Assembly: GCF_000317085.1 (NCBI RefSeq)
Contig: NC_019702.1
Location: 2,820,394 to 2,884,393, forward strand
Length of the DNA stretch: 64,000 nt
From: Synechococcus sp. PCC 7502
GTDB lineage: Bacteria > Cyanobacteriota > Cyanobacteriia > Pseudanabaenales > Pseudanabaenaceae
Reading direction: 5' to 3'
Shown: piece by piece, positions 8,371-63,506 of the stretch
Layout: the number at the start of each line of letters is the position of its first letter
Position numbering within the stretch: the first letter of the stretch is position 1
Notes under the pieces: generated by a model
What the model saw: the letters and a program-made list of their open reading frames with translations, nothing else
The model's database searches: none
Told to the model about the DNA's origin: nothing
Program-made: the position numbers and the translations under genes

Positions 8371-8529
8371 TCAAAGTAAAGTAGAGTAGGTGGAAACATT
8401 ATCCCAAGTCCACTTTCTATTGGTTAAATTAGCTCTCTGGGCAGCAGTTGTCTTTTTTCGAGAGTGAATCCATATCCAATTAAAAAATGTGACTAATAAT
8501 CTGACTGCTATTTCATTCCACTCCCATAA
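8371..8529 (-). pseudogene. Transposase-like C-terminal remnant cut by the IS630 element
   Basis: The minus strand reads from the IS630 junction into WEWNEIAVRLLVTFFNWIW, then RKKTTAAQRANLTNRKWTW, and stops at 8371-8373. The TAAQRAxLTxRxWxW ending is familiar from cyanobacterial DDE transposase tails. There is no start codon because IS630 sits where the rest should be. Family identity is by resemblance only. Confidence 0.45.
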
Positions 8530-9661
8530 TACCAAATCGAAGAGTATAGGCTACAGATGGTATAAATATATAAACCGAGTTCAAAGAAAAAAATGGCAGG
8601 AGTATACAAATTAGAGATCAGCGAAAGTGAAGAAGAGCTAAAACATATGCTGAGAGTGCAAAAGACCGCATCAGATAAAGAAAGAATTCAGATGCTGTAT
8701 CTGTTAAAAACAAAACAAGCAAGCACAATCCAGACAGCATCGACAATACTGGGACGGCATCGAGTTACATTGCAAGATTGGTTAGGGAATTATCGCAAAG
8801 GGGGAATAGTAGGACTAAACCTAGAACAGGGCGAAAACAGAGTATTCCACAATGGGCGCAGAAAGCATTGATAAAAAAGCTGGAAGAAGCAGAAGGCTTT
8901 GAAAGTTATGGGCAGATCTGCCAATGGTTAGAGAACCAATTAGGAATCAAATCAAACTATAAAACTGTGCATCATCTAGTCCGATATCGGCTGAAAGCCA
9001 GACCGAAAGTGACACGTCCAGTCAGCGCAGGAAAGTCAGAAGAGCAAGTAGAAGCATATAAAAAAACCTTGCCAGTATTATAAGCATGATTGCCTGGTTC
9101 GGCATTAATATAATCGGACTAAATGGCAAAGTGAGATTCTTTTGTCAAGATGAAACACGAATTGGGTTAAAGACAATTAGTGGAAGGAAGATCACAGCAA
9201 GAGGAGTCAAACCCAAAGGTAAAGTTCAGTGGCAGTTTAAGGCAACTTACCTCTATCGAATTGTAGAACCATCAACAGGGGAAAGCTTTTTCTATGAATT
9301 TACTCACCTTAATAGTGAATGCTTCCAAGTATTTCTGAACTTAGTAAGCGCATATTTTCAAGGTGACATCATCGTTATGCAAGTGGATCAAGCAGGAGCA
9401 CACAGAGCAAAACGGTTAAAGATTCCTAAAAATATTATTTTGCTATTTCAGCCTGCCCATGCACCTGAGACTAATCCCATTGAAAGAGTGTGGCAGCATT
9501 TCAAATTAGGGTTGAGGTGGAAACTGCCAAAAGATCTTGACCAGTTGCGTGCATTAATGCGGGAAAGGTTAGAAGTTATGACTCAAGAGGTAATTGCTTC
9601 GATTGTTGGGTGGGATTATATTTTAGAGGCTTTATCTGTAGCTCGTATTTAAAGTTTGGTA
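8530..9661 (+). mobile_element. IS630-family insertion sequence
   Basis: The left end reads TA-CCAAA...GCTACAGAT and the right end reads ATCTGTAGC...TTTGG-TA, an imperfect terminal inverted repeat with TA at both outer edges, as expected from IS630/Tc1-type insertion at TA. Between the ends lies one split transposase gene. The first 34 bases of the left end occur again, perfectly, at 31047-31080. The element interrupts an accessory locus: transposase-tail DNA lies on its left and the 3' part of an excisionase-like gene on its right. Confidence 0.88.
8593..9652 (+). pseudogene. IS630 transposase, split by two -1 frame changes
   Basis: Three consecutive frames together make one IS630 transposase. 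8593-8871 encodes the helix-turn-helix domain (TASTILGRHRVTLQDWL). The second frame, which stops at 9083, continues with RTGRKQSIPQW and SYGQICQWLENQLG. The third, to 9652, carries the DDE core with QDETRIGL, VDQAGAHRAKRL and ETNPIERVW supplying D, D and E. The second change lies at an A-AAA-AAC heptamer (9060-9067), a classic -1 slippery site, so that one could be programmed. The first, near 8815-8850, has no evident slippery motif and looks like decay. The catalytic triad itself is intact. Confidence 0.85.
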
Positions 9662-30946: not shown

Positions 30947-31046
30947 ATGAATCTCGATAAAGCACTTGTTGAGTTAGTACGCAAAATATTTGCACTTGGC
31001 GTTCCTGCCATTGTTTTGGTCATTTTTATGGCTACTACTGGTTTAC
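30947..31046 (+). pseudogene. Small membrane protein gene cut by an IS630 end
   Basis: An ATG-start frame reads MNLDKALVELVRKIFALGVP, then VLVIFMATTGL, and is broken by TA-CCAAATCG, the IS630 left end. The N-terminus and the ATTGL ending of the hydrophobic segment look like a small cyanobacterial membrane protein whose glycine/alanine-rich remainder is missing. The name is unknown to me. Confidence 0.55.
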
Positions 31047-31082
31047 TACCAAATCGAAGAGTATAGGCTACAGATGGTATAA
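31047..31082 (+). repeat. Solo IS630 left end, identical to the IS at 8530
   Basis: The first 34 bases, from the TA onward, are identical to 8530-8563. The similarity stops after GGTATAA, and neither a transposase nor a right end follows. It marks an IS630 insertion whose body was replaced by IS1-like DNA, or a one-ended remnant. Confidence 0.85.
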
Positions 31083-50779: not shown

Positions 50780-51622
50780 TTATTCCTCAACTAAAGTACT
50801 GAGAGAGTCTCTTCGCAATAGGTTTATGACCCGTCGTTTAATCTCAACGAAATCCGTGGAAAGCTTAATATCAAGTTCACGATTTTCTGGAAGTGGAATA
50901 TTCACCTCTGCTTTAATTTGTCCGGGAGAAGCACTCATCACATAAATACGTTGGGATAGATAAATTGCTTCTTCGACATCATGGGTAATCATCAGTACAG
51001 TTACATGGGTTTGTTTCCACAGTTCGAGTAAAAACTGCTGCATTTGTTCTTTAGTTTGAGCATCCAATGCCCCAAATGGCTCATCCATCAAAAGTACTGC
51101 GGGTTCATTTGCTAAAGCCCGAGCGATCGCTACTCTTTGTTTCATCCCTCCCGATAGTTGCTTAGGATAGTTATTAGCAAAATTTAATAGCCCCACCACA
51201 TTCAAGAAATAAGACACTCGTTCGCGCCTTTCCGCCTTAGACATTTTTTGAAACTGCAACCCGAAAGCGACATTTTGGGCTACGGTCAGCCAAGGGTAAA
51301 GGGTATAGCCTTGAAAAACCATGCCACGATCCGACCCCGGTCTGCCAGTCACAATTTGTTGATCGACTATTACTTGCCCAGAAGATGGTGGTAAAAGTCC
51401 CGCAATAATATTCAGCAGGGTCGATTTTCCACAGCCTGACGTCCCTAGAAGGCAGATGAATTCATGGGAGAAAATTTGGAAGTTAATGTCTTGAAGAATA
51501 ACTAACTTTTGTTTATTGTTACCTTGGTAGGACTTAAACAGATTTTTGACCTCTAGCTTAGGACTGGCAATCAATGAAGATTGATTCGTCAATTCTTGAA
51601 TATTCTGAGGTTGCAGTTGCAT
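50780..51622 (-). CDS. ABC importer ATP-binding protein, NitT/TauT/SsuB type
   Basis: 280 residues. Walker A GTSGCGKS at 60-67, signature LSGGMKQR at 156-163, Walker B VLLMDEPFGALD at about 176-187, and the switch histidine in MITHDVEEAI. The Q-loop is VFQGYTLYPWL. First gene of the operon, so it carries the likely promoter in 51623-51810. I see no clear NtcA (GTA-N8-TAC) site there. Confidence 0.95.
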   Translation of the reverse strand: MQLQPQNIQELTNQSSLIASPKLEVKNLFKSYQGNNKQKLVILQDINFQIFSHEFICLLGTSGCGKSTLLNIIAGLLPPSSGQVIVDQQIVTGRPGSDRGMVFQGYTLYPWLTVAQNVAFGLQFQKMSKAERRERVSYFLNVVGLLNFANNYPKQLSGGMKQRVAIARALANEPAVLLMDEPFGALDAQTKEQMQQFLLELWKQTHVTVLMITHDVEEAIYLSQRIYVMSASPGQIKAEVNIPLPENRELDIKLSTDFVEIKRRVINLLRRDSLSTLVEE

Positions 51623-51815
51623 ACAAAGCTTTAAGGGAACATTAGCAGAAACTTTTAGAAGTTAAATTTAAATAGTTGAAAGTATATGAACTTGTATTAA
51701 GACCCATTTATAGCCCTTCAATATCCGACTAATTGTATTTAATAATACTAAACATCTCAGTATTTGCGATCGCCGATGGTTGAATTTTTCTCAATGAAAC
51801 TCTTACTCAAGTGCA

Positions 51816-51890
51816 ATGGCTAGGACTGAAACATCTATAGTGAATCATCAGCAAGCCCCGATTTTAGAAGCGATCGCCAAGCTAAACTAA
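51816..51890 (+). pseudogene. Orphaned 5' end of the decarboxylase gene
   Basis: An ATG at 51816 reads MARTETSIVNHQQAPI, then LEAIAKLN and a TAA at 51888-51890. From VNHQQ onward it is identical to the start of the decarboxylase at 53479 until the repeat ends, after which it diverges into two codons and a stop. The upstream 8 residues exist only here, so this is the original start of the decarboxylase before the insertion. Confidence 0.8.
51836..51881. repeat. 46-bp direct repeat, left copy
   Basis: It begins TATAGTGAATCATC and ends GCGATCGCCAAG, identical to 53475-53520 at all 46 positions. Bases immediately outside (C/T on the left, C/T on the right) differ. It is a target duplication of the decarboxylase 5' end and contains one HIP1 site. 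Confidence 0.93.
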
Positions 51891-53474
51891 AGTAGCTGTA
51901 AATTAAGTGAGGTTAAATCTGACTAGCAAGGTCTAAGAAATATAGATCTGAGGATGGGTTTATATTTTCCTCTTCATTTGAAAAGAAAACTTCTATATTT
52001 TTATCAGTACCAACAGGAATGTCTAATATTTTAGAAAACCTTAGGGCTAAATCCTCAACTAATTTTCTAGCTGAGTCTTCAGATTTGGCTGGATTTACCC
52101 ATATGATTAAAGGTATGAATGGTAGTCTTTGCCACTTATATTTACTAAGAGCTTTTTGGGCTTTCCCTAAACTTGACTTAATTTGTAGTGGATAAACAGT
52201 ACTATTAACTTTGAAAAATAGATCCCATTTTAATTTTATGTCAGCATCGCTATCATGATATGAACTCCAAGCAGTTACCCCACTTAATCTTTCAAGAGCC
52301 GCCTTTACATTATTTATCGCAATGCTTCCTAGTTTATGTTCAGGCGTGTCCATCTCATAAGACTTATGAGAACTAAACCTGTGTGAGTAGTAATCTGCTC
52401 TCGACTCTGTTATTGGATAAATTTTATTGCCTAGACAACCAAATCTACTGTATTGATCTTCTAACCATTTAAACTCTATCGAATTGCCAGCTTCTTTTAA
52501 GCAATAGATATCCTCAGATATCTTAAATTTTTTGACTTCAATAGGTATTTTAAGTTTGGCTAAATTGTTTTTATCCCTACCAATACGCTTTTCAATAGAG
52601 TTTGGATGCTCTACTATATAGTTACTCTCTCTAATTTTAGTTTCATCTACAAAGATTGATAAATGATAGTAAGATAATGCGTCATTTTCTTCAGAGCTAA
52701 AAAAATCGTCAATTTTCTCTGTTACGCAGTCCCAAAATTCTGGGTTAGCTTCTAAACGATATAATATGTTTGAAGATGAATACTCCTGACCTTGATAGCT
52801 TATTGAATCAGGAATACTTAAAGTCTTTCCATTCTTAATTTTGACAAGAGATTTCTTTTGTTGGTTTCTTAGGTAGATTGATGCTGGATAAGGATACCAA
52901 TAGCTACCATCCTTCGTTCTTTTAATGATATTACCAAATCCTAAGCTATAGGAATATTCGGTTGTTTCACCATCTCTAAGTATTTTTTCTGTCACTCTGT
53001 TAAAAGGCAGCCTAATTTCAGTAAGATTACACTTGTCTTCTTCAGAAGGATAATAAAGCCCATCAGCTTCACTAGAAACTACTGGAAGTTTGTTGATTTT
53101 TAATTGATTAAGTAATTTACTAGTTATAGGTAGTTGACTACTACTTTTTTGAGCTTGAATCTGATTTTTATTTTCCTTATCTGATAAGTCAATTATCTGT
53201 AGTATTTGACTATGCTTAGAAATGTAATCCTTGTAGCATCCTTCCCATTCAAGAATAATGTTTCTGAGAGGCAGTTTTAACTCAGATGATTTTACTTTAG
53301 TATCAATACTGAACATTTGTTCTGATGAAATACCAAACCGATACTCATATATGCCTAATTTTTTTGCGAGAGCAGTTAATTCATCTAAGCATGAACTTAC
53401 AGAAGAACTGGTCATCCTTTTAAAAATTCTTGATTTTTATAATTATTATAGGGTATCTGAATTACTAGTAAATT
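51882..53474. mobile_element. 1.6-kb insertion carrying one predicted nuclease gene
   Basis: The DNA between the two 46-bp copies holds a single gene and short flanks. I find no HIP1 octamer in it, although HIP1 recurs every few hundred bases on both sides, and it is visibly more AT-rich, so it is foreign. No terminal inverted repeats, transposase or recombinase gene are present. Left and right flanks inside the repeats are about 30 bp and 60 bp. Confidence 0.78.
51913..53415 (-). CDS. Predicted PD-(D/E)XK nuclease-like protein in a long-duplication insertion
   Basis: 500 residues, no family recognised. The C-terminal third has the arrangement of a PD-(D/E)XK fold: a helix with Glu residues (EHKLGSIAINNVKAALERL, 359-377), then D398 in KWDLFF, a strand, and QIK at 411-413 (D-x12-QxK). 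A hydrophobic strand (LPFIPLIIWV, 431-440) follows. The N-terminal 350 residues may recognise DNA or another partner; a segment FVDETKIRESNY lies at 255-266. No signal peptide or membrane segment is seen. It stands alone without a methylase. The setting between long target duplications and the lack of HIP1 fit an orphan restriction-type enzyme, but this is an inference. Confidence 0.6.
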   Translation of the reverse strand: MTSSSVSSCLDELTALAKKLGIYEYRFGISSEQMFSIDTKVKSSELKLPLRNIILEWEGCYKDYISKHSQILQIIDLSDKENKNQIQAQKSSSQLPITSKLLNQLKINKLPVVSSEADGLYYPSEEDKCNLTEIRLPFNRVTEKILRDGETTEYSYSLGFGNIIKRTKDGSYWYPYPASIYLRNQQKKSLVKIKNGKTLSIPDSISYQGQEYSSSNILYRLEANPEFWDCVTEKIDDFFSSEENDALSYYHLSIFVDETKIRESNYIVEHPNSIEKRIGRDKNNLAKLKIPIEVKKFKISEDIYCLKEAGNSIEFKWLEDQYSRFGCLGNKIYPITESRADYYSHRFSSHKSYEMDTPEHKLGSIAINNVKAALERLSGVTAWSSYHDSDADIKLKWDLFFKVNSTVYPLQIKSSLGKAQKALSKYKWQRLPFIPLIIWVNPAKSEDSARKLVEDLALRFSKILDIPVGTDKNIEVFFSNEEENINPSSDLYFLDLASQI

Positions 53475-53520
53475 TATAGTGAATCATCAGCAAGCCCCGA
53501 TTTTAGAAGCGATCGCCAAG
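53475..53520. repeat. 46-bp direct repeat, right copy
   Basis: Partner of 51836-51881. The GTG at 53479 within it is now the first possible start of the decarboxylase. There is no good ribosome-binding site, and an in-frame TGA lies at 53458-53460, just upstream. Confidence 0.93.
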
Positions 53521-54897
53521 TATTTAGCCATCGATCACGCTCCTTTTTATATGCCTGGTCATAAGCGAGGGGTAGGGATTGATCCAGACTTTATAGCAAT
53601 GATGGGTACAAATCTCTTTCGCTTAGACTTACCAGAATTACCCGGATTAGATGAACCAATCTATGAAGCTGAAGTCCTTGCCGCCAATGCCTATGGAAGC
53701 AACCGCACATGGTTTTTAGTGAATGGTTCTACCTCTGGAATTGCCGCCATGATGTTAGCTGTAGCGGGGATCGGAGACAAAATTTTAATCGGGAGGAATT
53801 GCCATAAAGCGGCGATCGCTGGACTGGTTTTATGTGGAGCTACCCCAATTTATGTAGAAACTGATTACAATTCCGATTTTGATTTAGATTGTGGCATTAG
53901 TCCGCATAGTTTGCAAACAGCCCTAGAAAATAATCCTGATGCAAAGGCAGTACTTTTAGTTAGTCCCAATTACTTTGGTATCTGTGGTGATCTGGAAAAA
54001 TTAGTAGAGATCGCTCACTCTTTCAATGTTCCAATTTTAATCGATGGGGCGCATGGTGGACATTTACGCTTTCATCCCGATTTACCAATGGATGCTGTAA
54101 CCGCAGGGGCAGATGTGGTAGTGCAGTCAATTCACAAAATGGGATCAAGCCTAACTCAAACAGCAATGTTACATATTCAGAGTAAAAGAGTTAATAGCGA
54201 TCGCCTCGATCAAGCCGTACAAATGCTCCAAACCACAAGTCCCAATATTTTACTCTTAGCTTCTTTGGATGTGGCACGACGACAAATGGTATTACATGGA
54301 CAGGAATTATTAGATCAAACTATGGCTTTAAGTAATTGGGGGCGATCGCAAATCAATCAAATTCCTCACTTATATTGCTTAGATTACCAAGCTCAAATTC
54401 TCCACCTTGATCCCACGAGACTAACGGTAATGGTCAATCAATTGAGAAAAACTGGCTTTGATATGGATGAAATGTTAGTGCGAGATTTCGATGTGGTTGC
54501 GGAGATGCCGACCCTCAGCCAATTAGTTTTTGCGGTTTCCATTGGTAATACTGTCGCAGATGTACAGAAGTTAGTTCAAGCCTTTCAGAGTTTGGCAAAT
54601 CAGGAAAAATGCCATAATATTTCTATGCCAATCATTCCTAAACTGCCTAAACTCCATCAAAAATTAACCCCAAGATCGGCATTTTTTAGTCCTAGTCAGT
54701 CAATTCCCCTTGTCAATGCGGCAGGACATATATCCACAGAAACGATCTCACCCTATCCACCGGGAATTCCCATAATTTGCCCTGGGGAAGAAATTACAAC
54801 CGAAATTATAGATTTTTTGCAATTAATTAAAAATGCTGGTGGGGTAATTAATGGCTGTAGCGATCGCACCCTAGAGACCATTAAAGTCGTAATCTAG
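53479..54897 (+). CDS. Orn/Lys/Arg decarboxylase (small PLP form), 5' end altered
   Basis: 472 residues counting GTG at 53479. The N-terminus HAPFYMPGHKRGVGIDPDF is the family signature. The PLP lysine is K220 in SIHKMGSSL, and LIDGAHGGHLRFHP supplies Asp189 and His192. It is of the shorter cyanobacterial type that decarboxylates arginine, lysine or ornithine to polyamine precursors. The insertion upstream separated it from its own ATG (51816) and promoter, removing 8 residues. Expression from the GTG with no clear Shine-Dalgarno site may be weak. It precedes rsmG by 15 bp. Confidence 0.9.
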   Translation: MNHQQAPILEAIAKYLAIDHAPFYMPGHKRGVGIDPDFIAMMGTNLFRLDLPELPGLDEPIYEAEVLAANAYGSNRTWFLVNGSTSGIAAMMLAVAGIGDKILIGRNCHKAAIAGLVLCGATPIYVETDYNSDFDLDCGISPHSLQTALENNPDAKAVLLVSPNYFGICGDLEKLVEIAHSFNVPILIDGAHGGHLRFHPDLPMDAVTAGADVVVQSIHKMGSSLTQTAMLHIQSKRVNSDRLDQAVQMLQTTSPNILLLASLDVARRQMVLHGQELLDQTMALSNWGRSQINQIPHLYCLDYQAQILHLDPTRLTVMVNQLRKTGFDMDEMLVRDFDVVAEMPTLSQLVFAVSIGNTVADVQKLVQAFQSLANQEKCHNISMPIIPKLPKLHQKLTPRSAFFSPSQSIPLVNAAGHISTETISPYPPGIPIICPGEEITTEIIDFLQLIKNAGGVINGCSDRTLETIKVVI

Positions 54898-61719: not shown

Positions 61720-62265
61720 ATGTCAATTAGAATTTCAGGGGTGACCTCTGTTAAAACCCTATCAGGACTGGCAACTCGTCCCACCCCGAGCAAGGTTAGA
61801 GCCGCAGTTTTTAATATTTGGCAGTGGAAAGTTAGGCGATCGCACTGGCTTGATCTATGTTCAGGGTCGGGAGCAATGTCAGCAGAGGCTTTGGTTAAAG
61901 GAGCCAGTTTTGTGACAGCAGTTGAGGCTTCTAGGGCAGCTTGTAAAATTATTCAGCAAAATCTCGAAAAAATCTGTAAGCCCGATCAGGGATTTGAAAT
62001 TCATTGTGGCGATGTGGTCAAGGTTTTAGCTAAGCTTAGGGCTAGTAATTACGATCTAATTTATTTCGACCCCCCCTATCAAAGTCAGCTTTACCAACCA
62101 GTTTTACAGGCGATCGCCCCCCTCATGTCTCAAGATGCGGTAATAGCTGTAGAACATGCCCGTGAGCGAAGTTTAGAGGAAATTTCTTATGAATTATTTA
62201 ATCTCAAGTTAATTGATCAGCGTATGTATGGACAAACCTCTGTGAGCTTTTTTAACAAATTTTAG
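61720..62265 (+). CDS. rsmD: 16S rRNA (guanine966-N2)-methyltransferase RsmD
   Basis: 181 residues. The motifs SGSGAMSAEALVKGASFVTAVE (motif I and II) and the catalytic DPPY in IYFDPPYQSQLY (NPPY-type) identify RsmD. It modifies G966 in 16S rRNA. It lies 22 bp downstream of dnaK and may be cotranscribed. Confidence 0.93.
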   Translation: MSIRISGVTSVKTLSGLATRPTPSKVRAAVFNIWQWKVRRSHWLDLCSGSGAMSAEALVKGASFVTAVEASRAACKIIQQNLEKICKPDQGFEIHCGDVVKVLAKLRASNYDLIYFDPPYQSQLYQPVLQAIAPLMSQDAVIAVEHARERSLEEISYELFNLKLIDQRMYGQTSVSFFNKF

Positions 62266-63506
62266 CTAACTTGTCTATATCCGCAGTGATTACAATAGGG
62301 CAGAAATTTATAGGTGGCAGTTTGACAGTTTTCGCAGGTGACATGTTGTTCAAATCCACAGTAGGGGCAATGTAAATCTTGGGAACGAATTTTTTTGGCA
62401 CAGCGAATACATTGGAATTTTTGCACTCTAGTTATGATTTTACCTTTTTGATTTCCAGTAACTTTCTGAAAGAACTTAATAATTAAAAATCCAACTAAGG
62501 GAATTATAAAAATATAAACGTAGCTAATTAAAAATAGTAATTCTCCAAATAAAACTTGAATAACATCAGAAATAAATTTGAATATAATTCCAATTTGCAA
62601 GAATTCAAAGATTTTTAGTAGTAAGGGAATTAAAAAGATTACTAATAAATGCCAACTGATTAAAGATACTAGTCCAAATCCTTTACGACTACTATAGTTA
62701 TTGATTAATACAGCGATCGCAATTAAAGGTAGTAAAAATAATGATTGAAGCCCAATTTGAATACTGGGATACCAAAAATTAGCACGATCATAACCAGACT
62801 CAAGGTCCTTAAATTTTGAAGAATCATTTAATAAGTTAATAAATTCGATGACTTCAGGTTTCGCAAGTAATTCGGTTTTCAAAATGGAAATTTGTTGATT
62901 AAGCTTAGAGATTTGCTTTTGATTTTGCTCTAGCTGCTGTTTAGCTTTTTCAGCTGTAATTTGATTAATTGACTTGGTTTGAGGTTGTTGAGCAATTTTT
63001 TCTAAGAGACTGGAATCATATTGTGATTTGATAGTACGATTAAAGTCTTCTAGCTTATAAATATCTGCATATTTACCATTGATTTCAATAGTAATTTGTT
63101 TATTCTCAGAAGAATTTACCTGATCTTTAATATCAGCATAAATTAAACATTCTTCTGCTACTTGTCCTAAGTGATTTTCCTGCACATATAAATAGCTTTG
63201 TCGATATTGCTGTTGTTGCGAAGTATTAATAATTATTGCTTGATTAGCAAATTCATAATTTTTATTGCTGGCAGTTGAACCTTGATAATTTGCCCATTCT
63301 TGATGGCAGGGATAGGATTCTAAAGGACTTAGGTGCCACCGACTAATATCATATAATCCAGTAAAAACATTAACAAGGATAAAAATATCAACTAGAATTA
63401 TAACAATTAAACTAACTCTATTAACTGGCTCGTTATTAATGGTGCTGGAACGATTTAAGAATGAACTAAAAAACGAATTTAAAAATCGCAATATATTTCT
63501 AATCAT
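62262..63506 (-). CDS. Membrane protein with C-terminal zinc ribbons
   Basis: 414 residues. An N-terminal membrane segment near residue 30 (LIVIILVDIFILVNVFTG) is followed by a long polar domain that includes a coiled coil (EQNQKQISKLNQQISILKTE). Three further hydrophobic segments come next. The C-terminus has two zinc ribbons, CIRCAKKIRSQDLHCPYCG and CENCQTATYKFLPYCNHCG. Function unknown; the layout suggests a membrane scaffold or regulator. Its 3' end overlaps rsmD by 4 bp. Confidence 0.8.
   Translation of the reverse strand: MIRNILRFLNSFFSSFLNRSSTINNEPVNRVSLIVIILVDIFILVNVFTGLYDISRWHLSPLESYPCHQEWANYQGSTASNKNYEFANQAIIINTSQQQQYRQSYLYVQENHLGQVAEECLIYADIKDQVNSSENKQITIEINGKYADIYKLEDFNRTIKSQYDSSLLEKIAQQPQTKSINQITAEKAKQQLEQNQKQISKLNQQISILKTELLAKPEVIEFINLLNDSSKFKDLESGYDRANFWYPSIQIGLQSLFLLPLIAIAVLINNYSSRKGFGLVSLISWHLLVIFLIPLLLKIFEFLQIGIIFKFISDVIQVLFGELLFLISYVYIFIIPLVGFLIIKFFQKVTGNQKGKIITRVQKFQCIRCAKKIRSQDLHCPYCGFEQHVTCENCQTATYKFLPYCNHCGYRQVS

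Follow-up and report, generated by a model that had tools for sequence, protein, structure and literature searches.

A predicted PD-(D/E)XK nuclease with a TumA-like N-terminal domain in Synechococcus sp. PCC 7502 and its relatives in cyanobacterial defence and mobile-gene regions

The DREN nuclease of SPARDA is a PD-(D/E)XK protein which has D41 on its second strand and both Q60 and K62 on its third, and which itself resembles I-Ssp6803I (PMC12205087). The D41A and Q60A mutations abolish DREN activity while K62A impairs it, so a D...QxK site can be catalytic (PMC12205087). In the DISARM system, DrmC is dispensable and the way in which DNA is destroyed is an open question (PMC9142583). TumE-TumA is a validated translation-targeting toxin-antitoxin pair, and antitoxin domains fused in cis have been proposed for one TumE cluster (PMC10584680).

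The gene described here lies in a stretch of 64,000 nucleotides of the Synechococcus sp. PCC 7502 chromosome (NC_019702.1, positions 2,820,394 to 2,884,393), referred to as the window. It is an unbroken reading frame of 500 codons with an ATG start on the minus strand. The preliminary description of this DNA had located it correctly, and its residue numbering (D398, Q411 and K413, also E359 and D392) is right. A promoter-like sequence is oriented into the frame. The features of the gene are as follows:

51913-53415, minus strand: 500-amino-acid reading frame with a TumA-like N-terminal domain, a middle region and a C-terminal predicted PD-(D/E)XK nuclease domain, based on the intact frame and its relatives
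53445-53472, minus strand (read from 53472 to 53445): promoter-like TTTACT-N16-TATAAT, 10 of 12, the best in the region and a consensus match only
53191-53397, minus strand: residues 7-75, TumA antitoxin-like domain, from NCBIfam, PADLOC and our own profile
52381-52977, minus strand: residues 147-345, middle region common to the L002 and L014 proteins only, with no usable model
51976-52500, minus strand: residues 306-480, folded span with a PD-(D/E)XK core at about 356-466, from the predicted model, VIA-align and the alignment
52222-52224, minus strand: codon of D398
52183-52185, minus strand: codon of Q411
52177-52179, minus strand: codon of K413

Folding of the full-length protein from a four-sequence alignment was confident for the C-terminal part only, with pLDDT below 50 for residues 19-309. 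Residues 306-480 folded alone reached a pLDDT of 80.8 and a pTM of 0.82 (positions in this model convert to protein numbering by adding 305), and the two models agree on the secondary-structure elements. These are a helix at about 358-375, strands at 380-384, 399-403 and 406-413, a helix at 416-429, a strand at 436-440 and a helix at 446-464, which gives a core in the order helix-strand-strand-strand-helix-strand. In the predicted model, D398 is placed where the second core strand begins, and Q411 and K413 where the third one ends, i.e., the protein has the acidic residue on strand 2 and the [D/E/Q]-x-K on strand 3 by which the superfamily is recognized.

The same three residues are invariant in the intact relatives (32-45% identity), as are D392, W397, S414 and S415, and the columns invariant in the four-sequence alignment further include G363, A373, L374, L377, A382, S389, A391 and P409. 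The D-x12-QxK layout that had been noticed in the sequence is thus more than a chance arrangement, as it is kept in divergent relatives and lies in a domain predicted to fold in the PD-(D/E)XK manner, at the place where structure prediction had been suggested as a check. The glutamate-bearing helix that was part of the same proposal holds for some members: the window protein, L002, L014 and L013 have the glutamate (E359), whereas L015 and L016 lack it at that position, and it therefore does not belong strictly to the signature.

Comparison of the domain model with solved structures by VIA-align gave SPARDA first (9qcc, Z 5.1, 97 aligned residues, 3.6 A) and I-Ssp6803I second (2ost, Z 5.0, 91 aligned residues, 3.4 A, 20% identity), where a Z near 5 is for each match singly too low to demonstrate a common fold. 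Several archaeal Holliday junction resolvases (Hjc entries) came next, followed in lower rows by Can2, Bax1, McrC, BstEII, TnsA, LmuA and AvaII; nearly all top rows belong to one superfamily, and none reaches Z 8. Foldseek on the domain model returned no match with E below 0.001, and searching solved structures by sequence alone yielded no match or chance matches only. Profile-profile comparison with DUF4365 and XisH found no link, and this genome contains no match to PDDEXK_5 (PF11645). Collectively, the fold prediction, the conserved active-site residues and the class of structures resembled support the assignment, and it is highly likely that the C-terminal domain, as modelled, has the PD-(D/E)XK nuclease fold.

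The protein had been called an orphan, which our searches contradict. Among 386 genomes of the phylum, a protein search found a relative in G064, aligned over residues 181-466 with 37% identity, and one in G149, aligned over residues 356-424. A plasmid search found one relative, on the Nostoc plasmid pNPM2. While a single-sequence scan of a set of contigs gave no relative, an alignment-based scan of the same set gave three loci, in Aphanizomenon flos-aquae FACHB-1287 (L014), Dolichospermum sp. FACHB-1091 (L015) and Nostoc mirabile (L016); L015 and the G149 match have the same protein and seem to be a single locus. The family is rare, with 3 of 386 genomes positive by profile. The nuclease part has no relative in 57 related genomes, none was found in phage records, and viral contigs scanned with the nuclease alignment, a TumA alignment and the L014 protein gave nothing. 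For L002 and L014, the overall Ka/Ks is 0.47, with too few changes to carry an argument.

Every relative with readable surroundings (five loci, a small sample) lies in a defence or mobile-gene region. The relative in Aphanizomenon comes after two genes, one for an AriA-like ATPase and one of DUF4435 that is weakly similar to AriB. In Dolichospermum, the genes before the relative encode an AbiL/PDC-M38-type ATPase and a DUF3226 protein, and a DNA methylase lies farther upstream. The relative in G064 is downstream of a VapC-type PIN gene, and near it is a gene which we take, by eye from its sequence, to be DUF262-like. The pseudogene in Nostoc mirabile follows XisH and XisI genes. The relative on pNPM2 is part of an operon in the order drmD, drmMI, the relative, drmA, drmB and drmC, with gaps of 34 and 8 bases:

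L114 14729-16171 (NZ_CP026684.1 48728-50170): WP_104902231.1, the DISARM-operon relative on the conjugative Nostoc plasmid pNPM2, an extra predicted PD-(D/E)XK gene besides drmC

Since DrmC is dispensable and the destruction of DNA by DISARM is open, this extra predicted nuclease gene can be tested directly. We prefer a defence role for the family because all five readable loci of the relatives are in such regions. The window copy itself is outside any defence island, between an ABC transporter and a decarboxylase, and drmA, drmB and drmM were not found among its neighbours. The earlier proposal that the gene is a defence candidate therefore gains indirect support from the surroundings of its relatives, but none from its own location.

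The preliminary description stated that the N-terminal 350 residues match nothing. This does not hold, as residues 7-75 match the antitoxin TumA and residues 147-345 are common to two cyanobacterial proteins; a BLASTP match covers residues 147-466 (33% identity, E 3e-40). Database matches to residues 7-73 are weak, i.e., PADLOC PDC-M44A at E 2e-6 and NCBIfam TumA at 24 bits, compared to the NCBIfam cut-off of 100 bits. A profile of 29 cyanobacterial TumA sequences, built without the window protein, scored 31.8 bits on residues 7-75, while the best of 2,000 shuffles scored 9.5, and 17 columns are invariant between the window protein and five TumA proteins. Helical matches of residues 40-93 to ribosomal proteins were set aside, as there is no usable N-terminal model in that part.

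The same genome has two further TumA genes (scores 125-141), one of them paired with TumE at G000:C3:655 kb on the chromosome of the window gene. No TumE was found near 51913-53415. At several of the TumA loci examined, TumE is the next gene, which PF20126 confirms for L004. TumA matches occur in 54 of 386 cyanobacterial genomes, and only in the window protein does the match lie on a long frame (507 codons; the next longest is 210). The other of the two further TumA genes of this genome, on contig C1, is without TumE and is immediately followed by a type I restriction specificity gene (L085 1501-2610; G000:C1, about 30.4-31.5 kb). The end of the specificity gene is overlapped by a frame that, judged by eye, is presumably transposase-like.

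The TumA-like piece, found in this copy alone, suggests a possible built-in control switch. The L002 and L014 relatives are without it, and the domain may therefore be dispensable for the function of the family. An alternative is that the protein is a toxin-antitoxin system in a single chain, in which the nuclease would be the toxin and the TumA-like domain would restrain it in cis. The N-terminal position of the domain, the in-cis antitoxin fusions proposed for one TumE cluster and the VapC-type gene upstream of one relative are consistent with this. However, TumA is known to neutralize TumE and not a PD-(D/E)XK nuclease, and as relatives without the domain exist, the nuclease is kept without needing it. 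We consider such a self-contained pair unlikely.

The question of how the gene arrived was previously answered from the absence of HIP1 sites. There is indeed no HIP1 site (GCGATCGC) inside the gene, but this is a weak argument for recent arrival, as one is likewise missing from 10% of all stretches of 1503 bp in the window. Low G+C is the better argument, with 32.4% in the gene compared to 40.4% in the window. The lowest G+C of the window (about 28%) is found elsewhere, at 62262-63506, in a stretch holding a 414-amino-acid frame which by eye we assume to be membrane-protein-like with a zinc-ribbon end. The window gene is further flanked by a direct repeat:

51833-51881, plus strand: left copy of a 49-nt direct repeat, 98% identical to 53472-53520
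53472-53520, plus strand: right copy of the repeat, consisting of the first codons of the decarboxylase gene plus 7 nt
53479-54897, plus strand: Orn/Lys/Arg decarboxylase gene (PF01276, E 2e-66), the start of which is duplicated
51758-51825, plus strand: 68-nt copy (91%) of an internal part of an EamA-type permease gene that lies about 28 kb distant, forming the DNA left of the left repeat copy

The decarboxylase gene has the same start in G386, a genome of the same genus (85% complete), in which no such nuclease gene was found. The gene to the left of the decarboxylase is a different one there, and G386 thus does not display an exact empty site. A third copy of the repeat (88%) is located at C3:1886927-1886977 near pheA, so that the repeat is by itself no proof of a target duplication. 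Read by eye, this copy is presumably joined to a copy of the pheA end beside the intact pheA. Intergenic fragments of the EamA-type permease gene, the decarboxylase start and the pheA end (window 51758-51825 and 51833-51881; L045 2924-2978) are in some cases joined to each other, the junction with pheA falling on a HIP1 site, and intergenic DNA of this genome may carry gene fragments generally. A 39-nt repeat, 97% identical, is also present at window 8527-8565 and 31044-31082. The low G+C and the 49-nt flanking repeat support acquisition of the gene.

The arrangement of the repeat resembles what an insertion with a long target duplication would leave, and the term long target duplication is reportedly used in the literature for restriction-modification genes. 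The gene could accordingly be viewed as a solitary restriction enzyme, either of type II without a methylase or of type IV acting on modified DNA, which was inserted in this manner. The long repeat and the PD-(D/E)XK-type fold of the model would fit. Against it, no methylase adjoins the gene, as had been noted before, and neither PADLOC nor Pfam gave a restriction-family match. Moreover, a TumA-like domain is not known from any restriction enzyme. A solitary restriction enzyme is in our opinion improbable, and nothing in the results supports recognition of modified DNA in particular.

A selfish endonuclease of the homing type would cut its target and be copied into it, as I-Ssp6803I does for its intron. 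The place of I-Ssp6803I among the two best structural matches, the single-gene insert between 49-nt direct repeats and the low G+C all speak for this. On the other hand, there is no Rfam match to a group I intron or any other RNA family in 51000-54500 up to E 1, no tRNA was found near the gene, no second copy was found in its own genome, and related genomes gave no such gene. The relatives are in defence loci, one of them within a DISARM operon, and homing is not known to produce a 49-nt target duplication. We regard homing as distinctly unlikely. Finally, that the gene is decaying or inactive and without function is very improbable, as the rarity of the family and the in-frame stop in the nuclease domain of L016 (5582-6709), which falls between the D and QxK parts with homology resuming after it, are countered by the intact 500 codons of the window frame with all active-site residues kept and a promoter-like sequence upstream.

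The explanation we favour, with a probability of roughly 0.55, is that the window gene codes for a stand-alone effector nuclease which was acquired laterally, belongs to a family from cyanobacterial defence islands and has a TumA-like domain for control. D398 and Q411-x-K413 would bind metal in a site like that of SPARDA DREN. The nuclease would be silent until triggered and would then cut DNA most likely, and perhaps RNA too, in a metal-dependent reaction, with the outcome that either invading DNA is destroyed or the infected cell is killed. The trigger could be read either by the TumA-like domain or by the middle region, which probably senses it or keeps the nuclease inactive. The TumA-like domain is probably a control module that may dimerize the protein and bind its own promoter; alternatively, it may bind TumE, whose gene is elsewhere on the chromosome. 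Computation shows the reading frame, the class of fold, the conserved site, the similarity to TumA, the repeat and the defence surroundings of the relatives; catalysis, substrate, trigger, toxicity and the part played by the TumA-like domain are inferred. In a more specific version, the TumE-TumA balance of the cell would control this DNA-cutting effector, and release or loss of TumE binding would switch the nuclease on during infection, which we hold to be rather doubtful.

Compared to known systems, the window domain is like SPARDA DREN in predicted fold class, in the D...QxK type of site, and in the types and strand positions of its residues. The spacing differs, with D-x18-Q in DREN and D-x12-Q here, and SPARDA has an APAZ domain and a short Argonaute partner, whereas neither accompanies the window gene (from its neighbours and PADLOC on the protein). 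DUF4365 (PF14280), the family name of DREN, has no hmmscan match in the window protein, and hhalign against 15 DUF4365 sequences gave a probability of 0.3%. As there is no sequence-profile link, the relation to DREN is one of likeness and not of membership. I-Ssp6803I, whose structural match ranks second but is tied with the first, is about 150 amino acids long compared to 500 here, and differs from the window protein in that relatives of the latter are found in defence loci. Nearly the whole 76 amino acids of the TumA antitoxin (NF045776, PDC-M44A) align with the N-terminal domain, and the invariant LD, YE, SE, EW and YxxY positions are kept, but the domain is here fused to a nuclease without an adjoining TumE. 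In the DISARM-operon protein of pNPM2, the nuclease domain is homologous to that of the window protein (32% identity over 106 residues) and has the same D, Q and K, while the rest of the protein differs. The predicted nuclease family is new to Pfam, NCBIfam, PADLOC and PHROGs, none of which names the domain, and its members travel in cyanobacterial defence islands, in one case within a DISARM operon.
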